A DNA stretch of 51,763 nucleotides from a virus: positions 1-51,763 of the IMG/VR virus record IMGVR_UViG_3300021182_000126; one strand, written 5' to 3'. Positions 4,819 through 51,452 of this stretch are shown here, in pieces; position 1 is the stretch's first letter; the number at the start of each line of letters is the position of its first letter. The notes under the pieces were generated by a model that ran no database searches, was not told the origin of the DNA, and saw only the letters and a program-made list of their open reading frames with translations. Position numbers and translations under genes: made by a program.

Positions 4819-5750
4819 TCGCAATCACCTTTCAATAGGAAACGACGGCTTGCCGCCGACTGGTATAGATACTTTTGGAAAAGCTCGGGATTCTCAGCCT
4901 GACACTTCTTCGCGTCGAATCGGCTGCCCGCCCTGGCAGTCTTCCACGTGCAAATAATTTCCTCCCCGCACGCCAGCGCCTCGACATCCTCCATCGAGCG
5001 CTTTAACTCCGCCTCCAAAGATTCTTTGTACGCCTCCAGCTTCTTGTAGTATTCCTTGATGGCCAATAGCTGGCCGGCAACCTCCAAGTCAACTTTCGTA
5101 GCCGGCCTGCTGATCGGCTTGCTGATCGGCCACCGCTTCGACACGTCGGCGGCGTTGATCGGGTCAGGCGGCGTACGGGCTTCGACCATTGCCCAAAACT
5201 CACGCTCCCGCTCAATCATTAACTGCTGAAACTCCACGTCGGCCGGAATCTCGTAGACAGCGAACTCAAAATCGCCAAACAGAACCGGGACGTCGCACAC
5301 GCCGAGTCCGCTCACCACCATGTTGTGCTGGCATTGGAACAGATACGCAAGCGGAATCTCCGCGCTCCACGGATCGCCCCAGCCGGCGCGATTTCGAGCA
5401 GTCTTCGCCTCGATGCACCTTCGGTTATCCAGTGTGATTCCATCCAAATTGGCTCGCATGAAGGGATATTCCTTGCTCACCATGGCGACGGCAGGCTTAG
5501 ACACAACCAACCCGGTTTCATCGGTGTACATCTGCAACACGACCGGCTCCAACAGGGTTCCGCGCCGCATGTCGGCCGTTTCTTCTTTCCCTGAACGTCC
5601 CATCGCGTCGAGATAGCCAACCTTCTCCATGTACACGTCTAGTGGCGTTTCCCAAGTCGACATGCCGCAGACGGCCGCGGCGTCGCTGCCACCAATCCCC
5701 GTACGGCGTTCAGCGAGCCAGTTTTCGCGGGCAGTTGGTTCCACGCTCAT
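4749..5750 (-). CDS. YqaJ-family (lambda-exonuclease-like) viral recombinase nuclease
   Basis: A 333-residue PD-(D/E)XK nuclease of the YqaJ type. Visible motifs in order: GIGGSDAAAVCG near residue 20, RRGTLLEPVVLQMY near 65 (catalytic Glu), MRANLDGI near 100 (catalytic Asp), CIEAKT near 113 (the E-x-K pair), and LFQCQHNMVVSG near 140. The C-terminal portion is a coiled-coil-like helix followed by the usual SRRFLLK ending plus an extra tail that overlaps the next gene. Family members degrade one strand of linear double-stranded DNA to give substrates for an annealing protein. The start overlaps the csrA stop (ATGA) behind a G-rich site. Confidence 0.92.
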   Translation of the reverse strand: MSVEPTARENWLAERRTGIGGSDAAAVCGMSTWETPLDVYMEKVGYLDAMGRSGKEETADMRRGTLLEPVVLQMYTDETGLVVSKPAVAMVSKEYPFMRANLDGITLDNRRCIEAKTARNRAGWGDPWSAEIPLAYLFQCQHNMVVSGLGVCDVPVLFGDFEFAVYEIPADVEFQQLMIEREREFWAMVEARTPPDPINAADVSKRWPISKPISRPATKVDLEVAGQLLAIKEYYKKLEAYKESLEAELKRSMEDVEALACGEEIICTWKTARAGSRFDAKKCQAENPELFQKYLYQSAASRRFLLKGDCECLQIMKPMLGESFLEGRKLLGS

Positions 5751-5932
5751 CTGCCGCCCCCTTTTCGTTGAATCGCCTGGAAAACCTCGTCGCGATGGAT
5801 GAACACGCTCTTCGGAGCCTCCACCCCGACACGCACGTTATCGCCGCGAATATCCACGATCGTGATGTGGATGTTCCCGTCGGGATGATCGATCGTGATG
5901 CTCTCGTTTTTGTGGCGCGATAGGACTAGCAT
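5747..5932 (-). CDS. csrA: Carbon storage regulator CsrA/RsmA
   Basis: A complete 61-residue CsrA. It starts MLVLSRHKNESITI, has the central IVDIRGDNVRVGVEAP strands and the RNA-binding IHRDEV segment, and ends in a short basic tail. CsrA dimers bind GGA motifs in mRNA leaders and alter translation and stability. This copy is the first gene of the recombination/replication block and overlaps the exonuclease start (ATGA). Its own ribosome binding site lies in a CATGGAGGTTT context, which itself looks like a CsrA target, so autoregulation is plausible. A phage-borne CsrA could tune host or phage messages. The identification is very strong; the target set is unknown. Confidence 0.97.
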   Translation of the reverse strand: MLVLSRHKNESITIDHPDGNIHITIVDIRGDNVRVGVEAPKSVFIHRDEVFQAIQRKGGGR

Positions 5933-9094: not shown

Positions 9095-9958
9095 TCACCT
9101 CTGGTACTGGGCGGTTACGCAGCGAAGCAGGCCGCCTTCCATCGCCAAGTCGCGGCAGTCGATCCCCACACACGGGCAATCGCGGTACGTCTTCTCCAGG
9201 ATGTTTCGCACGGCGTTGTCGGCGTTGATGCCGAACGTCGGAAACAGCACCAAGCCGCGAACCTTGAGAAAATTGACGAAATACCCTACGGCGGGATTGA
9301 AGTCGTCGGCGTTGGGATACTTGCAGCGGAACTCGGCGTGGCTGCAAATATGCGACTGATAGGCGAAGGGAAACGGCTCAACCTCCAGGGCGTGCTTGTT
9401 GAGGGCCTTCCGAACCGCTTGGCCGTAGTCTTGCAATTCCGGCACGTGCGTCAACTGATAGTTGTTCACGAACACCGTGTTGGCGTCGATCCACGCCGCC
9501 ACGCCGTCGCTGTGGCCCAATGGATCGCCCGGCTCGACCGGCAGGAAGATAACCTGTGCCTCCAACAGAGATTCTAGCTTGTCGTGCAGGTCGTCTCGGC
9601 TATAGCCGGGGTTCTGTTCAAAAACAATATCGGTCATCAACACCTTGTCGTTGTGGCGGACGACGTTGCCGCCGTCCAACACAAGGTCCGAGTGTACGAT
9701 GGCGCCGACATGCCGCCAGGCCGACTCGTTCACGGCCAGTTGCGGCCACGCCGTTTCGTCGTGGACGTAGCGAAACTTGACGAAGTGATCGCCAACCTGG
9801 ACGGGGAAAAAATCCCGACACCAGATATTGCGGGTCTCGGTGACAATGTGAACGTCGCAGTCGACCGACTGGAGCTCCTCGACGATCGCGTTGAACACTT
9901 TGGGGTATCGGTCCAGGGACTGACACAGGTAAACGACATTGGTGTCGGCGTCGATCAT
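9095..9958 (-). CDS. Agmatine/peptidylarginine deiminase-like pentein enzyme
   Basis: A 287-residue protein of the agmatine deiminase / PAD_porph group. Visible signatures: NIWCRDFFPV (Arg48-Asp49), LVLDGGNVV (Asp95-Gly-Gly-Asn), PLGHSDG (His149 and Asp151), and the C-terminal EGGLLRCVTAQ with the probable nucleophile Cys280. Enzymes of this fold hydrolyse a guanidine group to a ureido group plus ammonia, for example agmatine to N-carbamoylputrescine, through a covalent thiouronium intermediate. It lacks a signal peptide and is a little shorter than agmatine deiminase (about 340 residues). The start ATG 9958 follows TAGGAGCC. Coupling to a decarboxylase-like and a second pentein gene suggests a shared metabolite. 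The true substrate is unknown. Confidence 0.87.
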   Translation of the reverse strand: MIDADTNVVYLCQSLDRYPKVFNAIVEELQSVDCDVHIVTETRNIWCRDFFPVQVGDHFVKFRYVHDETAWPQLAVNESAWRHVGAIVHSDLVLDGGNVVRHNDKVLMTDIVFEQNPGYSRDDLHDKLESLLEAQVIFLPVEPGDPLGHSDGVAAWIDANTVFVNNYQLTHVPELQDYGQAVRKALNKHALEVEPFPFAYQSHICSHAEFRCKYPNADDFNPAVGYFVNFLKVRGLVLFPTFGINADNAVRNILEKTYRDCPCVGIDCRDLAMEGGLLRCVTAQYQR

Positions 9959-10959: not shown

Positions 10960-13900
10960 CTATCGCTTCCTCTTTATAAGCCTTTTTTCCGGCACGTTCT
11001 CGCGTAGAACGGGAATGCCGGTTTCCAGGTGTTGCCAGAACGTCTCGGGCTTGCGTTTGATCGTTTTGCCGGACTCATCCTCGTCGTCCATGTTGGCAAT
11101 CTGCTGCAACATGCCGGGCAGGACTCGCGACTTGGCCAACTCCGCCAAAAAGTCGTCGGGGTTTTGTTGTAGCTTGTTCAACTCGAACATTTCTCGCACA
11201 AACGGGACATCTTCGGTCAGGCCCAAAATTGCGGCAGTAATGCCCCGGCCGGTGCCTTTCTTCTCTGGATTCTTCTTGGATAATGCCGAGGTGGCCACCT
11301 GCCCGATGGTTGAAAAGAACTCGTAGACCTCCGTGGGGATCGTATGGGTTTTGTAGTGCGTTCCGCCAATGTCGACTTCGCCCGGCTGCAAATCTTCGTC
11401 CTTGTACTTCTTTCCGTGCTGGTAGAATGCGCCAATCCCAGCGCCGCCAGTAAGGACCGCCACGAGAGCGATCGCGCCGCCAATGTTGCCGTTCTTGAGT
11501 TTCCGCATAATCATATCGGCTTCGGCGGGCTCCAGATCAGCAATGCCGGCTCGAATCGCCCGCCGTGCTCGTACGTTCCCCTCAACCAACCCCGTGACGT
11601 GCTCGAAACATTCGGCCACGATATTGGTAGGTACTGTGACGATCGGAACGAGGGTATTGGCGATCAACTCAGCGAACTTTCCCAATAGGGTGGCGTGCCC
11701 AGTCTTTGGGTTGCGTCGGGCGGAAAAATACTCGCGAAATCGCTTGGCCGCCGCGTTGTCGTTCATGAAAATCTGTCGCTCGGCGTGCTGGTAGCACTCG
11801 CTGTCAATCTTCATCGTCACCATCGGATCGGTAATGTCGATGTTGTGCTCGGCCGCCCATCGCATGTACTTTGACTTGGCATAGTCGAAAGCCATCTGCT
11901 TGATCGGCTCCTTGAATGCGGCGTGAACCTTGCCGGGATAGTCCAGCCAAGACCTCGGCTCGACTCGCCCCTTGCCGACTCGCGTGGTAAGAGGACTCTC
12001 CTCACCCTTCAAGAGTTTGATCGAGCCCTTCAACCCCGTAACCAGTCCAATGTATCCATCAAGCACAGCCCGAAAATCCATTCCACCGTGGATCGGCGAC
12101 TTCTCCGCAATCTCGGGGTGGCGCCATGACGATAAACCACCCGACAACTCGCGCACAGGCAGTTCCAAAATGCGCGACGCCGCCATTGACGTAAGCTTTC
12201 CAAAGATGGACGGGTAGGACAAGACGTTGAATCGCACCACCTTGCCGGCAAGATCGGCTGCCTTCTCTACTCCGGTTCGGTTGGCGCTTCGCGCCGTAGC
12301 CTCCATGATCCGCAACTTGAGCTTCTGTTGCTCAATCTGATACTTCAAGCCGTCCTGTTCTTTCGTGAGGACTCGTTTCTTGATGGGCTTCTTGGCGTAG
12401 TTGCCACGGGCGACCCGACTCTTGTAATCGGCCAGCCGCGTTTCGAGCGAACGCTTGTAGGCAAGATTGCTCTTTTCCTCGGGCGAAAGTTTCGGGTTGG
12501 CGGCGTCGCGCAAAGCGTCCCGCTTCTCTCGCAACTTGGCCAGTTGTGCACGCTTGGCGTCCAGGGCCGGCGTGGAGATGGGTTTGTCTTTAGGTTTCGG
12601 CGCCACGTCGCCACTTTTCAGATCGGCCTCTAACTGGGCAATGGAGCGATCCAGAGCCTTGCCGGCAAGCTCGGCCTTTTTGGCGTCCGAGATCGGGGGT
12701 TTCGGGAAGGCGGCGTCGTGCTTTTCGGACAGGGCCGCGTCGGCTTCACGCAGAGCAAGTAGTTCGGCGTCCGGCTTCAACTCCGTCCGTTCCTTGATAA
12801 TCTTCTTGCCGGTGCGCAACTCCTCCGCCTTGTCGGCCATGCGATTACGCACCGCCCGTTTGGCAGAATCCAGGGCAGTCTTGAGTTGCTTCGCAGGATC
12901 GGTAACGCTGAACCCGCCCTTTTTCTTCGCTTCATTGACCAGCTTAATCAGGCGTCGCTCTTTCTTGCTTGGCTCGCGGCGCTCAATGCCCGTCTTCTTT
13001 GGAGCCGCGCCCTTTCGCATATCATCCAATTTAGCAAGCTGCTGTAACTCTCCTTTGATTACGCGGACTTTAATACTCGTCTCGTCCTTCGTGAGCTCCT
13101 TAAACTCACCATAGCCAGACATCGCATCCATTGTCTGCCGACGTGTGATTTCCGGCATGATCCACTTAAGTTCGGCGTGAACCGCGTCGACAACCTTCTT
13201 TCGATCCTCGATTCCAGACTCCACAGTCCATCGCGTGAGCTTCTTCGCCAGCCGCCCAATTTCCGACATATCCGTGGCGTCATGCACAGCCGGCGGCAGA
13301 GAACCCTCATCCCGCAGGGTATCCCATGCCGCCAAGAATGTTTCGCGGGCTTTCTCGGCCTTCTCGCCGAGGCGATCGCGCATCGTCGCCATGAATTCCG
13401 AGACGCGCATCGTCGCCATGAATTCCGAGAAATGCACGATCCCCAATTCCACGGCCGCCCTCGTTAGTTTCGTAGCCTCTACGATTAACTCGGGATCGAG
13501 GGGGTTGGCGTACAGCTTGCCGGCTGCCGCTTTCACAAAGCTGGCAAAGGCATCGTCAAAAGCTTTCCGCGCCGCGGCAACCCGAACCTTACGAGGCACC
13601 ACAGGCTTCCGCGAGGCTTTCTCTGTGGGCTTGCTCTCGGCAGGGGCCGTACTCGAAGGCTCAAATCCATCCGCCACTTCCCCCTCGCCTTCCCAAGGAA
13701 AATGAAAATCGTCGGGAAGCGGCTTTCCCTTCTCTGCTGCCAACCGCTGGGCAACTTCGTCGAGCTTATCGTACCATTCAGGAACCGCCCGCGGACCACG
13801 CTTAATTAGGTCCACGATGGCCGCTGCCATGTCCTTCGTTTCAATAACGCCCTCAGCGTCACTTTCCGGTTGAAGCCCCAGTTCAGGAAAGTCCCTTGCC

Positions 13901-42021: not shown

Positions 42022-42103
42022 CTCGTAAACTTGGTCACTTCACGTCAGGCCGGCCGGCCCAGCGTGAAGGTTGCCGGTTTAGATTTAGAAAGAACAAAAC
42101 AAG

Positions 42104-42175
42104 TGGTGGCCGCAGGAATCGGACCTGCCTTTTCTTGGTTGTAAGCCAAGCGAGACGCCTTGCCTCCCGGCCACA
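42104..42175 (-). tRNA. trnV: Phage tRNA-Val(TAC)
   Basis: On the minus strand the sequence folds as a 72-base cloverleaf. The acceptor arm is TGTGGCC / GGCCACC (outermost pair mismatched). The D arm has a short GAG/CTC stem. The anticodon stem CTTGG/CCAAG holds loop CTTACAA, giving anticodon UAC. A 5-base variable loop, T arm GCAGG-TCCGATT-CCTGC and discriminator A follow. CCA is not encoded. It is a degenerate but plausible tRNA reading GUA. It lies between the terminase and portal genes and just upstream of a strong terminator. The anticodon should be confirmed with a tRNA finder. Confidence 0.82.
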
Positions 42176-44711: not shown

Positions 44712-44957
44712 CTAAATGTTCGTGCAATCCTCGATCGTCCGCACGGGACTATCCTCCGCCAAGTTCCGCAACGCCTCTCGCACTACACGCACCGCATACG
44801 GGCCCAGACCCTTCGTCGAACGCAACTCATCGTCAGAGAATGCCAGAAGATCGTCCAGCCACACAAGCCCTAAATGGTTCTCCAGAGCATTGATAATCCG
44901 AATCGGAAGCCCGTAAATCTCCAGGTCCGCTATCGTCGCTCGGTCTTCCGTTCCCAT
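44712..44957 (-). CDS. RNA polymerase alpha C-terminal-domain-like protein (81 aa)
   Basis: The 81-residue sequence closely follows the helix order of the alpha subunit C-terminal domain. IADLEIYGLPIRIINALEN aligns with the first helices (…ELGLSVRSYNCLKRA…), then LVWLDDLLAFSDDELRSTKGLGPYAVRVVREALRNL contains the helix-hairpin-helix with G-L-G-P at the turn. Such domains bind UP-element DNA and activators. A free-standing copy has no N-terminal dimerisation part, so it may compete for host promoters or link polymerase to a phage site. It is the first gene after the late promoter. Alternatively it is a generic HhH DNA-binding protein. Confidence 0.72.
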   Translation of the reverse strand: MGTEDRATIADLEIYGLPIRIINALENHLGLVWLDDLLAFSDDELRSTKGLGPYAVRVVREALRNLAEDSPVRTIEDCTNI

Positions 44958-45785: not shown

Positions 45786-45814
45786 TTGACCATAACTGAC
45801 GATACCGCTATGAT
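45786..45814 (+). promoter_or_regulatory. Strong sigma70 promoter for the rightward module
   Basis: TTGACC (45786-45791), a 17-base spacer and TATGAT (45809-45814) make a near-consensus promoter. It lies about 67 bases before the start of the first rightward gene and within a frame extension of that gene, which supports the downstream start. Confidence 0.78.
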
Positions 45815-45881: not shown

Positions 45882-46862
45882 ATGAACGCGACAGCCAAAA
45901 CGATCGGGATTGACGAGGGAACAAGCTTGCTTGGCGAGATTGTGACTTGGGACATGGACTCTATGGAAGTCCCCTACGCCACCGTTATCTGGGCCCTGGA
46001 GGCGGCCGCCCTGCCGACTGCCGACGCCGCAGAACTGAGGGCGCAGACCGCCTTTAGCCGCGCCGTTAAGGAGCTGCGAGAGGGCCGCACCATTGACCGC
46101 GTGGCACGCGACAAGAACACCGGAGTTATCACATTCCAATTCACCCGCAAGCACCCGGACGAAGCAGAATTGCAGATTGACTTTGCCTATGAAGCGCTTT
46201 GCCACCTGGACACGGAATACGGCACGATTACTTGTGAAGACTCGCCGACGATCGAGGCGCACGCCCGCGAGATGTTCAAGCACGCCATGGCACACCGCAA
46301 CACTTCCGACGTAACGCGACTTGTCCAAAAGATGTTCCAGACCCACGCCGACCTCTACGCGATCAACCCGAAAAAAGGGGTCGCGTATTTTGTGCCCCAA
46401 GCACATGCCGACTTCTCGGCCAAGGTAGAAGAATTCCTATCAGCCCTCGGCGGCCGCCTCTTCCGCTTCCCCGTGCCAAAGGGCACAGCCGAGGGCGATC
46501 GAGCCGTTAGGGCATCGGTCGAAGACGGCCTACACGCGATCGCGGCCGAACTCGAAGACGCTGTCAACTCGTGGAACGAGAAGACGCGGGAAACGACCTT
46601 CGAGAAGGCTATCACACGCTGGCAGCAGATCAAGCACAAGGCTGAGGCATATGGTGAATACCTCGGCGACCGACAAGCCACGCTGTTGTCCTACCTGGAC
46701 GACCAGAAGCGCCGGCTTGCTGCCAGGGTAGCCGAATTGTCGACCGCCAAAGACCTGAAAGCACACGGAGACGCACCCGAACAGCGCACCATGTTCCCGG
46801 GCGCGACTTCGCCCATTGATGTCTTCGACTTCGACAAGCAGCCCGAGCTTGCGACAGCTTGA
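45882..46862 (+). CDS. First gene of AAA+/VWA module, DUF6744-like (326 aa)
   Basis: The 326-residue protein opens MNATAKTIGIDEGTSLLGEIVTWDMDS and contains AFSRAVKELREGRTIDRVARD, then NPKKGVAYFVPQAHADFSAKVEEFL and a C-terminal helical bundle (KAITRWQQIKHKAEAYGEYLG, DDQKRRLAARVAELSTA). I recall this layout as the phage family DUF6744, often found next to AAA+ and VWA genes; it is not an enzyme I can name. The N-terminal domain may be a substrate-binding fold. ATG 45882 has AAAGGGATG before it; the frame extends to 45786 only through the promoter. It heads an operon and may present targets to the AAA+ ATPase. Confidence 0.68.
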   Translation: MNATAKTIGIDEGTSLLGEIVTWDMDSMEVPYATVIWALEAAALPTADAAELRAQTAFSRAVKELREGRTIDRVARDKNTGVITFQFTRKHPDEAELQIDFAYEALCHLDTEYGTITCEDSPTIEAHAREMFKHAMAHRNTSDVTRLVQKMFQTHADLYAINPKKGVAYFVPQAHADFSAKVEEFLSALGGRLFRFPVPKGTAEGDRAVRASVEDGLHAIAAELEDAVNSWNEKTRETTFEKAITRWQQIKHKAEAYGEYLGDRQATLLSYLDDQKRRLAARVAELSTAKDLKAHGDAPEQRTMFPGATSPIDVFDFDKQPELATA

Positions 46863-46868
46863 ACCTGA

Positions 46869-46889
46869 GGGGCTGGAGCACCCAGCCCC
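46869..46889 (+). other. RNA hairpin between the DUF6744-like and AAA+ genes
   Basis: GGGGCTGG and CCAGCCCC (46869-46876 / 46882-46889) form a perfect 8-bp stem with a 5-base loop just after the stop codon. No T run follows, so it may protect or process the message in the 100-base gap. Confidence 0.55.
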
Positions 46890-46964
46890 GATGGCCCACG
46901 CTGTTGAACGTGGCCCGCGCCGGCCGGTTGCCGGTTGTGCCGACTTTCTGGAAGGGAATAAACC

Positions 46965-48068
46965 ATGCACGAGATTCGAGAACACTTTGCCGCCATGCGG
47001 CGCGACCTCTGCGCCGCCCTGATCGAACGAGACGAAGAAATCGACCTTTGCCTTACTGCCCTGATTGCCCAGGAGCACGTATTGCTAGTGGGCCCGCCGG
47101 GCACGGCCAAGAGCATGTTATCGGACGCCCTTGTCCGATGGCTGGACGGTTCACGCTTTCAAATCCTGCTGACCAAATTCACGACGCCCGAGGAAGTATT
47201 CGGGCCAATCAGCTTGGCCGGCCTGAAAACCGACCATTACCGCCGGATTACCGCCGGCAAGCTTCCCACCGCCGATATCGCCTTTGTCGACGAGATTTTT
47301 AAGGCTAGCAGCGCCATCCTTAACACAATGCTGACTGTGTTAAATGAACGCCACTACGACAACGACGGCGAGCGCGTGGCCTGCCCGCTCCAGCTTTGCG
47401 TAGCAGCATCGAACGAATGGCCAGGGGGCAACGGCGACGGGAAAGAGCTTGGGGCCTTGTTCGATCGATTCGCACTCCGCAAGCATGTTCGGCCGATCGC
47501 AACCGAGCGCGGCCTAAACCGCCTGTTGTGGGATGATATCCACGTTGACCTATCGGGCACGATTACGCCCGACGACATCGAAGAGGCACACCAGGAAGCC
47601 TATGAAACAGGCTGGACCGACAGCGCCCGCGCCGCTTTCCTCGAAATCCTGAAAGAGGCAAAATCGGAAGGGATTATTCCCGGCGATCGACGCGCCCGGA
47701 AGGCTGTTGCCATTGCCCAGGCATACGCTTGGCTGAACGGCCACAACGAAGTACAAACCGACGACCTGGAGATTCTTGCCCACGTGCTTTGGGATGACCC
47801 CGCCGAGCAGCCGGGAAAACTGGCCAAGATCGTCGGCAAGATCGCCAACCCCGAGGGCATGAAGATCAACAGCTTGTTGATGGAGGCGGAGCAGATTATC
47901 AGCGGCACGCAACTAAAAGACCTATCAGCCACCGCCACCGCCTGCAAGAAGCTTGGCGAGGTTCACGCCCAACTTAAAACCATGCCGGGCACGAAGGCTA
48001 GCATGGCGGCCGAGCACGTGGCGGCCGAAGTCAAGAGGATTCGCCTTGCTACTGTGGAGGCGCTTTGA
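46965..48068 (+). CDS. MoxR/RavA-like AAA+ ATPase
   Basis: A 367-residue AAA+ protein. Walker A GPPGTAKS lies at about residues 43-50, Walker B IAFVDEIFKAS near 105, sensor-1 AASNEWPGG near 147 and the arginine-finger region DRFALRK near 168. After the core comes a helical lid with RRARKAVAIAQAYAWLNG and a coiled-coil C-terminal extension rich in Ala/Glu/Lys. MoxR proteins form hexamers and work with VWA partners as chaperones or as metal-insertion motors (RavA-ViaA, NorQ-NorD, CobS-CobT). The VWA partner is two genes on. ATG 46965 has GGAAGGGAA upstream. The stop overlaps a small gene behind GGAGG. Confidence 0.92.
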   Translation: MHEIREHFAAMRRDLCAALIERDEEIDLCLTALIAQEHVLLVGPPGTAKSMLSDALVRWLDGSRFQILLTKFTTPEEVFGPISLAGLKTDHYRRITAGKLPTADIAFVDEIFKASSAILNTMLTVLNERHYDNDGERVACPLQLCVAASNEWPGGNGDGKELGALFDRFALRKHVRPIATERGLNRLLWDDIHVDLSGTITPDDIEEAHQEAYETGWTDSARAAFLEILKEAKSEGIIPGDRRARKAVAIAQAYAWLNGHNEVQTDDLEILAHVLWDDPAEQPGKLAKIVGKIANPEGMKINSLLMEAEQIISGTQLKDLSATATACKKLGEVHAQLKTMPGTKASMAAEHVAAEVKRIRLATVEAL

Positions 48069-48070
48069 CT

Positions 48071-48265
48071 ATGAAAACCTACAGCAGCTTATCCCAGTGT
48101 ATCGCAAATCTGTTGTCCGGAGAAACGCCCGGCATTCGCGTAACATCGATTCCACCGGAGGAGATAGAGGCAGCGGTGGAATTGATTCGGGACGGCGACG
48201 CCGTGCTACTACTCACCGACCAAGGGCTACGGCTTGCCGCAAAACCACTATCGGAGGTTAACTAA
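48071..48265 (+). CDS. Small protein between the AAA+ and VWA genes (64 aa)
   Basis: The protein starts MKTYSSLSQCIANLLSGET and continues PGIRVTSIPPEEIEAAVELIRDGDAVLLLTDQGLRLAAK, a compact alpha/beta domain. The ATG at 48071 follows GGAGG and the upstream stop by two bases; the TTG at 48065 is rejected. It is sandwiched in an AAA+/VWA operon, so it may be an adaptor. No family is recognised. Confidence 0.65.
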   Translation: MKTYSSLSQCIANLLSGETPGIRVTSIPPEEIEAAVELIRDGDAVLLLTDQGLRLAAKPLSEVN

Positions 48266-48267
48266 CC

Positions 48268-49707
48268 ATGACCGCAAAAGACCTACTTGCAGCCCTGGAG
48301 CTTGCTCCAGACAATCTGGGACCGGTCGACCTCGGCGACGACCACGCCCAGACAGCGGCGCCGCTTGGACCGCCACCCAGCCCAACAGCGCTTGTTCTGG
48401 ACGCCTGGAGCATAAGACGCGGGGCCGAGAGTCTCAAAGGCGACGTACTGGGGCCGATCCTCACCGGACACGACCAGGAGACGGCCGAGCTTATGGCCGC
48501 CGATTGTCTGGCTGCCGCCTTTGAACCTACGCCGCAGCTTGCGGAGAACTGCGCCGACGAGACGCGGGGCCGATTCTTCCGCCAACTCATGGAAACGGAA
48601 GAATACCAAGCTTTACACGCAGAGACGCGGCTTGACCCACTGGCCAGTGAACTGGCGGCCGGACACTTCGCCCAGGGTTATCTGGCACTTGCCGAGCAGA
48701 CGCCGCCAGAGACACCGCCCGACGCCCCGGGCGCAACGCCCAAGAGTCCCCAGGAGAAAGAACGCGACGAAATGCGGCGCGATATGGCAGCCCTCGGAGC
48801 AGCCGCCAAGGCGCTAGACTCGGCAACGAAAGACGTTGACGACCTACGCGACGCCCAGCGCACGCTAGGGGGCGAAGGTAGCGACGGCGCTAGCCGCTTG
48901 CCAGCGGCCGAGCTTAAGGCGCGCTTTGATCGGATCAAGCACAGCCGCCAACTCCGCCGCATTATGGAGCTTGCGGGGCGTTACCGGCGACTTGCACAGG
49001 CAAAGCAGCGCCAGAAGACGCGGCACGGCCAAGACGACGTTGTAGGCGTGGAGCTGGGGGCCGACCTCGGCCGGCTATGCCCGAGCGAACTGGCCGCGCT
49101 TTGTGATGACGACCTAGAGGCAGACGCCCTGCGGCGCTACCTCGAACGCGGATTGATGCAGCGCGACTATCGCGGCATAGAACCGAAGGGCAGGGGGCCA
49201 ATTGTCGTTGTGGTCGATGAATCGGGCAGCATGAGCGGCGAGCCGATCGCTATGGCAAAAGCCTTTGCGCTATCTATGGCTTGGGTTGCACGCCATCAAA
49301 ATCGGTGGATATGCCTTGTTGGCTTCTCCGGTTGCTGCCCCGTAAATGTTCTGGCCATGCCGCCGGGTCGATGGGATCAAGTAGCTATGATCGACTGGCT
49401 GGAGCACTTCTATTCGGGCGGATCGGACCGAGACGTCCCATTGATCGAACTGCCCGAGGCATGGCCGGCGCTTGGCTGTCCCAAGGGCGATACGGACATT
49501 ATCCAGATCACCGACGCTTGTTGCAATGTCTCCGCCTCACTGGCCCGACGTTTCAACGACTGGAAGACAGCCACGCAAGCAAAATACTACTCAATTGTTC
49601 TGGGGTGGAACGATGCCGGCGACCTGCGCCAGGTTTCCGATCAATCCTGGTGTTTGCGTGATCTATCCATCGAAAACGAAGCAATTCAAGAACTGTTGGC
49701 GATATAG
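48268..49707 (+). CDS. VWA-domain protein, partner of the MoxR ATPase (479 aa)
   Basis: The N-terminal ~300 residues are helical and charged (an Ala/Glu/Asp-rich region with EKERDEMRRDMAALGAAAKALDSATKDVDDLRDAQR as a coiled coil). The C-terminal ~165 residues are a von Willebrand A domain: VVVVDESGSMSGEP with the metal site D-x-S-x-S near residue 315, then a Gly/Ser turn YSGGSDRDVP and IIQITDA supplying the last ligand. The build is that of ViaA/CobT-type partners. It starts at ATG 48268 two bases after the upstream stop with GGAGGTT further upstream. The pair probably assembles or remodels a target. Confidence 0.9.
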   Translation: MTAKDLLAALELAPDNLGPVDLGDDHAQTAAPLGPPPSPTALVLDAWSIRRGAESLKGDVLGPILTGHDQETAELMAADCLAAAFEPTPQLAENCADETRGRFFRQLMETEEYQALHAETRLDPLASELAAGHFAQGYLALAEQTPPETPPDAPGATPKSPQEKERDEMRRDMAALGAAAKALDSATKDVDDLRDAQRTLGGEGSDGASRLPAAELKARFDRIKHSRQLRRIMELAGRYRRLAQAKQRQKTRHGQDDVVGVELGADLGRLCPSELAALCDDDLEADALRRYLERGLMQRDYRGIEPKGRGPIVVVVDESGSMSGEPIAMAKAFALSMAWVARHQNRWICLVGFSGCCPVNVLAMPPGRWDQVAMIDWLEHFYSGGSDRDVPLIELPEAWPALGCPKGDTDIIQITDACCNVSASLARRFNDWKTATQAKYYSIVLGWNDAGDLRQVSDQSWCLRDLSIENEAIQELLAI

Positions 49708-49718
49708 GAGAAAACACG

Positions 49719-49919
49719 ATGAGCTTTACAGTATTTACCCGTACGTGGTGGACTCGCGACCCGGCGCTACCCGCCGGCCGTATATGCAGACCGGGCCGAA
49801 AATACACGCTTGCGGATCGCGTCGCAACCGAGGCAGAAGCGCTGGAAATCTGCCGGCGATACAACGACTCGCACGACCCAGGACCATTGAGCCGGCGCGC
49901 CGAATACGACGAGAACTAG
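49719..49919 (+). CDS. Small protein of a widespread phage/plasmid family (66 aa)
   Basis: A 66-residue protein starting MSFTVFTRTWWTRDPALPAG and containing ATEAEALEICRRYNDSH and a PGPLSRRAEYDEN end. I recognise this pattern (TWW opening, ICxxYN, SRxAE ending) from small proteins encoded by many mobile elements, function unknown. ATG 49719 follows TAGGAGAAAA. It is co-transcribed with the AAA+/VWA genes. Confidence 0.75.
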   Translation: MSFTVFTRTWWTRDPALPAGRICRPGRKYTLADRVATEAEALEICRRYNDSHDPGPLSRRAEYDEN

Positions 49920-49961
49920 AGGGACTTTCCAGACGGCCGCGCCTGCCGGTCGATACGTTTA

Positions 49962-49991
49962 CCCCGCCGCAGGTCAAAGGGCGGGGGTTTA
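49962..49991 (+). terminator. Intrinsic terminator-like hairpin after the 66-aa gene
   Basis: CCCCGCC (49962-49968) pairs with GGCGGGG (49980-49986), followed by GTTTATT. It probably causes partial termination within the rightward module. Confidence 0.5.
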
Positions 49992-50005
49992 TTCACGGGA
50001 ACACC

Positions 50006-50554
50006 ATGCGCCAGCAAATTATCTCAGACGTAGAACGCCACCTTTGCGCACTGGGCGAGCTTGCCCCCATCCTCGGCAGCGCCGGCTTGTGCCTGTACAT
50101 TGCACACGTTGCCGCCCTCACACTGTACAAGCACGGGCTGCGCCCCGTAATTCAAGCGGGCTCGCTGCAATGGCCGCGAATGAGGAGAGACGAAGACGAT
50201 GGGCGCTGCAACACGCACTTTGCCTATATGTGGGAGCCAGGATCGCCGCAAAGCATTGCATCTTGGGCATCGGGTAATCTGCCGGAAATGCACGTATGGA
50301 TCGGGCTTACAGCACCGCAAACGCTTATTGACTTCTCGACGCGCCACTTGAAAGACGTAGCAGCAGCCGAGGGCATGACGTGGACAGCGCCAGAACCGCC
50401 GCGCTATGTCTGGACCGCGCCAGATGACCTGCCGGACTGGGTTGCCTACCACCCGAACCGGGACGCGACCATTCTTGCGGCCGGCATCCTTTGGAAATTG
50501 TTCCAGCCGCCTTACCTCAAAAATACCGCAATCGGAAAGAGTAGCGCCAAGTGA
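50006..50554 (+). CDS. Hypothetical protein, 182 aa
   Basis: Starts MRQQIISDVERHLCALGELAPILG. The rest is a mixed alpha/beta domain with FAYMWEPGS, MHVWIGL and a probable Trp/Pro-rich C-terminal section (PPRYVWTAPDDLPDWVAY). I do not recognise it. ATG 50006 follows GGGA; upstream frame belongs to other genes. It overlaps the next GTG start (GTGA). It may be part of the AAA+/VWA module, but no motif shows that. Confidence 0.62.
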   Translation: MRQQIISDVERHLCALGELAPILGSAGLCLYIAHVAALTLYKHGLRPVIQAGSLQWPRMRRDEDDGRCNTHFAYMWEPGSPQSIASWASGNLPEMHVWIGLTAPQTLIDFSTRHLKDVAAAEGMTWTAPEPPRYVWTAPDDLPDWVAYHPNRDATILAAGILWKLFQPPYLKNTAIGKSSAK

Positions 50555-50588
50555 CGGAAAGCAAAACGCCGAGTGACGGAAAGCAAAA
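50551..50588. repeat. 16-bp direct repeat at the start of the zinc-ribbon gene
   Basis: gtgacggaaagcaaaa occurs at 50551-50566 and again at 50573-50588, a 22-base period, and both copies contain a GTG. It is not a multiple of three, so the copies are in different frames. Confidence 0.85.
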
Positions 50589-50757
50589 ACAAACAGCCGA
50601 TCAGCGGCGAGCGAAGGAACCACCGCCAGCGCCCGACGATCCGCGCTATAGACGAACGTGCGGCCGGTGCGGAGATGTTCGCAATTGGACCGTGTGTTTT
50701 TGCGCACGGTGCGGAAGTCCCGAGTTTGAATTACCACAAGGAAAGGAAATATTATGA
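50551..50757 (+). CDS. Zinc-ribbon small protein (68 aa)
   Basis: A hydrophilic Lys/Pro-rich N-terminus is followed by CGRCGDVRNWTVCFCARCG, two CxxC pairs about 13 residues apart that form a likely zinc ribbon. The N-terminus is encoded in a tandem direct repeat (gtgacggaaagcaaaa twice), so a start at the second copy in another frame would give a different protein. GTG 50551 overlaps the upstream stop. It could be a nucleic-acid or protein adaptor. Confidence 0.7.
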   Translation: MTESKTPSDGKQKQTADQRRAKEPPPAPDDPRYRRTCGRCGDVRNWTVCFCARCGSPEFELPQGKEIL

Positions 50758-51452
50758 GAGCAATTCTCTACGCCAGATTCTCACCGCGCCCCAACGCCGC
50801 AGAATGTGAATCATGCGAATCACAACTGAACGACCTACGCGCCTACTGTACCCGGCTAGGCTGGGAGATCGCGGGCGAATACCAGGATAAAGCCTTGTCG
50901 GGAGGCAACGACTGGCAAGATCGTCCGGGCATGTTCGATGCAGCCCAGGCATGTAAACGCGGCAATGTCTTCGTGGTCCTCGCTTTCGATCGATTATTTC
51001 GCGACACGGAAAAGGCGCTCGTCTTCAAGTCGCTTCTCGAAGCCAAGGGCGTTACGATCCGATCCATCACGGAAGAAGTGGCTTGTGACGGGTCGCCGAT
51101 CGCCAACATGGTGCGAACCATTTTCCTTGCAGTTGCCGAGTACCAGCGAGAAATGATTCGGGCACGCACACGCGCCAAGATGCTGGAACACCAGCGCAAC
51201 GGCCGGCGGATGTCGCTGCGTACACCCTACGGCACAATGAATGACCCATGCGACCCCAAGCGGCTTGTTCCGTGCCGAGAAGAACAAGCCGCCATCGTCG
51301 TTATATGCGACCTGCAATCGCGAGGGCTTGGCCTGCGTGAGATAGCTCGCAAACTTGAGGAACTGCGGATTCCTCGGCGGGGAAAAGAGAAGTGGACCCA
51401 CGGGCTAGTGCGGTCGATACTGACGCGGTTGAGTCGCGACACGGCGGCATAA
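50754..51452 (+). CDS. Serine recombinase (resolvase/invertase family)
   Basis: A 232-residue protein with a resolvase catalytic domain: ILYARFSPRP with Ser10 as probable nucleophile, VFVVLAFDRLFRDTEKAL near residue 75 (D-R-L-x-R), and LAVAEYQREMIRARTRAKM near 125. The C-terminal part (TPYGTMNDP, EEQAAIVVICDLQSRGLGLREIARKLEELRIPRRGKEKW) resembles the winged DNA-binding piece of larger serine recombinases, without the zinc-ribbon and coiled coil. Known members invert or resolve DNA. The genome already has a tyrosine integrase, so this one may act in dimer resolution or inversion of a segment. ATG 50754 follows AAGGAAAGG and overlaps the upstream stop (ATGA). The final 150 bases overlap ruvC on the other strand. 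Confidence 0.88.
   Translation: MRAILYARFSPRPNAAECESCESQLNDLRAYCTRLGWEIAGEYQDKALSGGNDWQDRPGMFDAAQACKRGNVFVVLAFDRLFRDTEKALVFKSLLEAKGVTIRSITEEVACDGSPIANMVRTIFLAVAEYQREMIRARTRAKMLEHQRNGRRMSLRTPYGTMNDPCDPKRLVPCREEQAAIVVICDLQSRGLGLREIARKLEELRIPRRGKEKWTHGLVRSILTRLSRDTAA

Follow-up and report, generated by a model that had tools for sequence, protein, structure and literature searches.

Linkage of DUF6744 genes to MoxR–VWA pairs in diverse phages and a putative three-part remodelling machine

Results

The window analysed here is a whole virus record of 51,763 bases (IMG/VR record IMGVR_UViG_3300021182_000126). At its right end lies a set of plus-strand genes, among them the genes of a DUF6744 protein, a MoxR AAA+ ATPase and a VWA protein, together called the trio here; nearly all likely window genes outside this set are on the minus strand. 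The set contains the following features.

45786..45814, plus strand: sigma-70-like promoter match TTGACC-17-TATGAT, 10 of 12 matches, upstream of the first gene (weak evidence)
45882..46862, plus strand: DUF6744 protein, 326 aa (PF20529, 31.1 bits)
46965..48068, plus strand: MoxR AAA+ ATPase, 367 aa (PF20030, 177.7 bits)
48071..48265, plus strand: 64-aa open reading frame (ORF) between MoxR and VWA, not conserved
48268..49707, plus strand: VWA protein, ViaA-like, 479 aa (NF008230, phrog_24053)
49719..49919, plus strand: 66-aa ORF, not conserved, no family in the libraries scanned
50006..50554, plus strand: 182-aa ORF, no family in the libraries scanned
50551..50757, plus strand: 68-aa ORF, zinc-ribbon-like by its cysteine spacing, not conserved
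50754..51452, plus strand: serine recombinase, 232 aa, last plus-strand gene of the set (PF00239, 100.3 bits)

Records were recruited by MoxR alone, 27 in all: three viral contigs with the single protein, at least 22 with a six-row alignment, and two cultured phages (H1 and H2, out of 27 tblastn MoxR matches in the phage collection, ten of which were opened: H1, H2, H3, H7, H10-H13, H16 and H25). A VWA relative is present in 24 of the 27 records. PF20529 finds DUF6744 in 18 of the 27, 14 of them above the cut-off, and has no match in 14 control genomes. Our own profile, built from 17 of these 18 proteins, adds strong matches in the loci L014 and L017 and a weaker one in L025, which brings the count to 21 of 27. 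DUF6744 thereby occurs in 21 of the 24 records with VWA and in none of the three without it. In 16 of 18 cases no more than 3 kb separates DUF6744 from MoxR (median gap 407 bp); all 17 placed DUF6744 genes share the strand of MoxR and are usually adjacent, while their position varies, some preceding MoxR, some following VWA and some lying between MoxR and VWA. A placement test of this proximity yields a combined p of 9e-19, assuming independent records; pairwise MoxR identity has a median of 31% and a maximum of 74%. Clustering of neighbours from 28 sources gives MoxR 23, VWA 21 and DUF6744 18, with the next family at 6. The reverse search, starting from DUF6744, recovered all three genes in a viral contig (L031) and in two Planctomycetota loci (L050 and L051); PF20529 matched in 9 of 392 Planctomycetota genomes (5 above cut-off). 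Distances among the MoxR, VWA and DUF6744 proteins are correlated over 18 loci (Mantel r 0.76-0.86) and over the 14 loci left after removal of L002, L007, L008 and L009 (r 0.51-0.70), with none of 5000 permutations as high in either set. The sequence-only reading of this locus had named lack of conserved linkage as the result that would speak against it; the search, once run, returned strong linkage for MoxR, VWA and DUF6744. Judged by these comparisons, the MoxR–VWA pair and DUF6744 are a linked module, and the linkage of DUF6744 is new here. The literature searched (titles, abstract openings and passages, with few subscription journals) describes MoxR–VWA pairs and no such trio, which is not proof of novelty because most subscription journals lay outside the search.

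The window MoxR has bpMoxR (PF20030) as its best Pfam match, at 177.7 bits against a gathering cut-off of 27 (AAA_5, 85.6 bits), and its closest solved structures are those of RavA (E 1.2e-43, residues 2-279). It reaches 179.6 bits with the RavA model NF010054, below the equivalog cut-off of 681, and corresponds to a RavA-like AAA core without the C-terminal length of RavA. The VWA protein matches the ViaA model NF008230 over residues 248-462 only (59.4 bits, cut-off 500), phrog_24053 at 101.8 bits and PF13519 at 17.3 bits, under its cut-off. With such scores neither protein is RavA or ViaA proper. Walker A, Walker B (D109, E110), N150, R168 and R242 of MoxR are conserved in 25 aligned rows, and the DxSxS residues D317/S319/S321 and D416 of VWA are nearly invariant in 26, so that the intact ATPase motor and the intact metal site read earlier from the sequence are both borne out; Walker, sensor and metal ion-dependent adhesion site (MIDAS) are the labels that we take these residues to deserve. 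The 26 VWA proteins scanned contain no fused effector domain, no metallopeptidase fusion and no VMAP, iSTAND, FtsH or beta-propeller domain; the phage zinc-finger domain PF24623 is found in one of them, assigned to L009 by its cysteines. CobS/CobT and CoxD/CoxE were also considered and rejected, since the window VWA stays under the cut-offs of CobT_C (12.7 bits, cut-off 21) and VWA_CoxE (10.4 bits, cut-off 26.4); some of its relatives match VWA_CoxE. Nor is there a metal-cofactor enzyme among the neighbour families listed (25 of 80 in Pfam and 25 of 153 in PHROGs, from a scan of 132 of 180 neighbour ORFs; the metal-cofactor result refers to the Pfam part). Of the two roles offered by the sequence-only reading, metal insertion therefore loses its footing, while a chaperone or remodelling role fits the model and structure matches to RavA and ViaA.

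The first gene was likewise correctly read as DUF6744-like: its product scores 31.1 bits with PF20529 against a gathering cut-off of 27, and its close relative in L002 26.0 bits. The AlphaFold2 (AF2) model has a mean confidence (pLDDT) of 83.6, and of 90.4 over the N-terminal 201 residues, and consists of an alpha/beta N-terminal part followed by long C-terminal helices. Among viral predicted structures it has four matches at E <=0.001, all uncharacterised or unnamed. One of these, L7TK87 of the haloarchaeal virus HVTV-1, was taken as gene 25 of that virus from its length of 383 aa; HVTV-1 gene 25 is confirmed as DUF6744 by our own sequence profile (3.2e-23) and by PF20529 (69.5 bits). Against solved folds the N-terminal 201 residues gave a best Foldseek E of 0.055 and a best VIA Z of 6.0 (root-mean-square deviation 2.8, 80 aligned), and the list of solved structures for the full model is dominated by long helices, the sequence profile matches being mostly helical as well. 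The structure comparisons lent no support to the idea that the helices and hairpin of the N-terminal part are winged-helix-like. In tblastn searches of cultured phages the window DUF6744 had no match, that of L007 had matches at chance level only, and that of the Moorella phage found the Moorella phage itself only. DUF6744 goes unmentioned in the literature searched, which leaves out most subscription journals. In L020 (13282-14529, plus strand) a YqaJ-like exonuclease has a C-terminal tail similar to the terminal helices of DUF6744 (E 7e-5 among 4006 ORFs), a likeness that may be a chance helical match.

Distant relatives of DUF6744 also adjoin a classical AAA ATPase in four Planctomycetota loci, two of which (L043 and L052) are contigs from one genome.

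L054:7662-14135, minus strand: DUF6744-like gene and classical AAA gene
L053:7489-14606, minus strand: DUF6744-like gene and classical AAA gene
L052:754-3794, plus strand: DUF6744-like gene and classical AAA gene
L043: DUF6744-like gene and classical AAA gene

The two proteins scanned with PF20529 score 24-26 bits, under the cut-off, and the four loci give 114-121 bits with our own profile; comparison with the DUF6744 of L051 shows 23.5% identity (E 4e-20). L053 and L054 also have a ThiF relative, a JAB-like gene, which in L054 falls just short of its cut-off, and a small gene taken as ubiquitin-like, without a Pfam match. Mainly because the same family adjoins two unlike AAA+ machines, DUF6744 looks like a portable AAA+ partner.

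Compared with their counterparts in L002, the DUF6744, MoxR and VWA genes show nonsynonymous divergence (dN) of 0.22-0.30 and synonymous divergence (dS) of about 1.7-1.8, near saturation; with dN this low against such dS, they are genes under purifying selection. The 64-aa, 66-aa and 68-aa ORFs had no tblastn match in the loci fetched for this comparison, and the 64-aa ORF gave nothing over threshold in Pfam or NCBIfam and reached PHROGs only at E 0.1; in L002, MoxR and VWA are only 2 bases apart. The 182-aa ORF has a single tblastn match among the loci (L032, 35% over 116 aa), and the only tblastn relative of the serine recombinase among them is that of L002 (45.6%). By this comparison the small ORFs, like the zinc ribbon, were added to the core three genes locally, and the earlier view of the small proteins as module partners has to be given up. 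The zinc ribbon itself stands by its cysteine spacing, but its best Pfam match, HypA, stays at 16.1 bits, below the cut-off of 28.9, and it is not a conserved member. What had been called a complete operon shrinks to a conserved core of three genes; its supposed end at 50757 is not one, as the co-directional serine recombinase at 50754-51452 continues the set. A strong promoter of its own could not be upheld either: the scan counted 5 sites where shuffled sequence would give 2.4 (sd 1.7), the best with 10 of 12 matches, and the site upstream of DUF6744 is by its letters an ordinary consensus match. The serine recombinase relative in L002 (14093-14911, plus strand) carries a four-cysteine insert, whereas in the window a separate zinc-ribbon ORF overlaps the start of the recombinase gene.

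The named neighbour families listed belong mostly to DNA metabolism (helicase, primase, resolvase, glycosylase, ligase), with DnaB 3, Toprim 3, UDG 2 and RecU 2 among the counts, and also ligase, RecT, YqaJ and Mom. Such neighbours are compatible with the early function suggested by the sequence-only reading. In the Aphanizomenon phage CL131 (L006), a polymerase III beta subunit adjoins the MoxR–VWA pair. A reverse-transcriptase-like gene, recognised by eye, lies just after a MoxR–VWA pair lacking DUF6744 in L018 (10957-11859, plus strand); PF00078 occurs in 2 of the 132 neighbour ORFs scanned.

Phage genes elsewhere in the window include a DnaB helicase and a RecE-like exonuclease (high scores), a large terminase (weak match), a tyrosine integrase and the serine recombinase. 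A terminal repeat was looked for in the window and none was found; the record is probably circularly permuted, as the recombinase-then-DnaB order across its joined ends is continuous in L002. A Planctomycetaceae contig of 13 kb (L037) from a metagenome-assembled genome encodes proteins with 70% (DUF6744) and 81% (MoxR) identity to those of the window, together with relatives of the terminase and portal-position genes, which suggests a planctomycete host for the window phage, subject to the usual binning doubt. On the minus strand the window further encodes an 81-aa protein like the RNA polymerase alpha C-terminal domain (44712-44957; PF03118 23.5 bits, cut-off 23.8), with a similar ORF in L030, a phage-encoded CsrA (5747-5932; PF02599 76.9 bits), a Porphyromonas-type peptidyl-arginine deiminase family protein (9095-9958; PF04371 87.1 bits) and a tRNA-Val gene (42103-42175) that separates the terminase gene from the one following it. 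The 855-aa DnaB relative of L002 (14955-17522, minus strand) has a long insert that appears intein-like by eye.

Discussion

Very different viruses keep the genes of MoxR, VWA and DUF6744 close together, and for this reason we consider it probable that the three proteins act as one dedicated, ATP-driven protein-remodelling machine. Conserved physical linkage, correlated divergence and intact catalytic residues are what is seen in its favour. In such a machine MoxR would be the hexameric motor, VWA would dock on it and use its metal site to capture a ligand, as in other MoxR–VWA pairs, and DUF6744, as a third subunit dedicated to the machine, would recognise or sense the target. DUF6744 is likely an adaptor or sensor, a role that we infer, as no solved fold matches it confidently; that it is itself the client seems rather unlikely. 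Since the neighbour families mostly concern DNA metabolism, we lean to a target that would be early and DNA-related over one in virion assembly. Our tentative candidate, at somewhat less than an even chance, is a DNA-metabolism complex of the phage or the host, which the machine would remodel ahead of replication or while it proceeds.

Several observations weigh against a dedicated three-part machine. Three of the 24 records with MoxR and VWA (L006, L018 and L024) have no DUF6744, and in CL131 an LPD29 protein (L006:758-1600, plus strand, 78.4 bits) takes its place before MoxR. Six more records of the phage collection (L057-L062), five of them unverified faecal contigs of 4-10 kb, lack DUF6744 in the stretch fetched. 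In a 40-row MoxR tree an E. coli-labelled RavA-type contig is joined (100/100) by four of these (L058-L061), which look bacterial, and the RavA-type rows form a clade of their own (100/100) without DUF6744. On this tree the DUF6744 label changes 6 times, against a mean of 11.7 in shuffles, of which 0 of 500 were as low. Taken with the six records lacking the gene, this describes the predicted linkage as a clade-wide habit with losses, and not as universal. The DUF6744 of HVTV-1 lies about 15 kb away from the AAA_5 and VWA genes, DUF6744 has no confident solved-fold match, and common phage descent can also yield correlated distances. Finally, divergent terminase and portal-position genes border the window set, so that packaging genes on the opposite strand flank its other side.

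Among other explanations, a counter-defence or host-takeover role, in which, at an early stage of infection, the trio would take apart a defence or a polymerase complex of the host, is a minority possibility. DNA modification or methylase genes (Mom, N6_N4_Mtase) neighbour the trio in some records, and in L003 an S-adenosylmethionine lyase family gene (11978-12550, plus strand; PF23780 37.1 bits), an anti-restriction type of gene, lies between DUF6744 and VWA. However, these neighbours do not recur, with 1 or 2 members each, and PADLOC gave no match of note. Slightly less probable still is a virion assembly chaperone, with the trio maturing tail or head proteins or putting them together. The archaeal virus ATV offers a precedent, and an assembly role has been proposed for a MoxR–VWA pair with a metallopeptidase fusion in group 2.2 jumbo phages, as far as the accessible passages of these sources go (PMC4124505; PMC7824862). 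The trio, or its contig-visible part, also adjoins terminase and portal-position genes in the window, L002, L030 and L037. Yet these genes are on the strand opposite to the trio, none of the 26 VWA proteins has a metallopeptidase fusion, and no head or tail family is among the 25 of 80 Pfam and 25 of 153 PHROGs neighbour families listed, most named ones being DNA metabolism. Improbable in our view is a trio that is itself a phage-borne conflict or superinfection-exclusion system, like the MoxR–vWA ternary systems of multicellular bacteria: bpMoxR of those systems is the closest Pfam model for the window MoxR and the three-component logic is the same in the passages describing them (PMC7159879), but the VWA proteins have no effector domain, no beta-propeller, VMAP or STAND partner was found, and an effector system, being fast-changing, would hardly be expected to stay conserved in phages as diverse as these. 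A captured host RavA–ViaA pair without a phage-specific role and with DUF6744 as a chance neighbour is very improbable, because, although no named model fits MoxR and VWA better than RavA and ViaA do, the linkage persists at a median MoxR identity of 31% and the RavA-type clade stands apart.

Known MoxR–VWA pairs are described as chaperone and co-chaperone in the parts of the literature consulted (PMC7159879; PMC7911831). The closest class to the trio, by its gene content, are the MoxR–vWA ternary systems (Kaur et al. 2020, PMC7159879), which share the logic of MoxR, vWA and a distinct third component. As excerpted, the four published systems have the same core pair, but the trio belongs to none of them: its third component is DUF6744 and not VMAP, iSTAND, FtsH or a beta-propeller, and the effector fused to vWA, stated for the VMAP systems, is absent from the phage VWA. 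The trio with DUF6744 was moreover mostly found in phages here. E. coli RavA–ViaA provides the best solved-structure relative of the window MoxR, and both genes match its models; the window is nevertheless far under both equivalog cut-offs (179.6/681 and 59.4/500), its MoxR has 367 aa against 498 in RavA, and DUF6744 is linked as a third gene in phages. The earlier statement that phage MoxR genes are without proven role holds with a qualification from ATV, an archaeal virus in which p892 binds p618 and stimulates its ATPase, and for which a chaperone role in extracellular tail development was assigned from protein interactions, as given in the passages seen (PMC4124505). Like the window, ATV and SMV1 have virus-encoded MoxR and VWA genes, which in SMV1 lie side by side; they differ in a distant MoxR (27-32% over part) and in the lack of DUF6744 in the SMV1 stretch examined. 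MoxR is likewise linked to a second subunit in phage CL131 (gp147/gp146), with LPD29 instead of DUF6744, and in Bacillus phage 0305phi8-36 (orf66/orf63), the latter according to excerpts of its description (PMC2147016).

A broader picture can be drawn, which we regard as speculative and rather doubtful. DUF6744 would be a portable AAA+ partner that viruses pair with a RavA-type MoxR–VWA as a general replication and recombination remodeller, and whose relative planctomycete elements pair with a classical AAA and ubiquitin-like conjugation genes; cellular RavA–ViaA would then be one branch, without the third subunit, of a larger and mostly viral three-part family. MoxR–VWA pairs are widespread and their targets mostly unknown, and DUF6744 may thus serve as a concrete handle, a bait, for the target of viral MoxR. 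In turn, the linkage of the trio names a candidate function class for the DUF6744 family.

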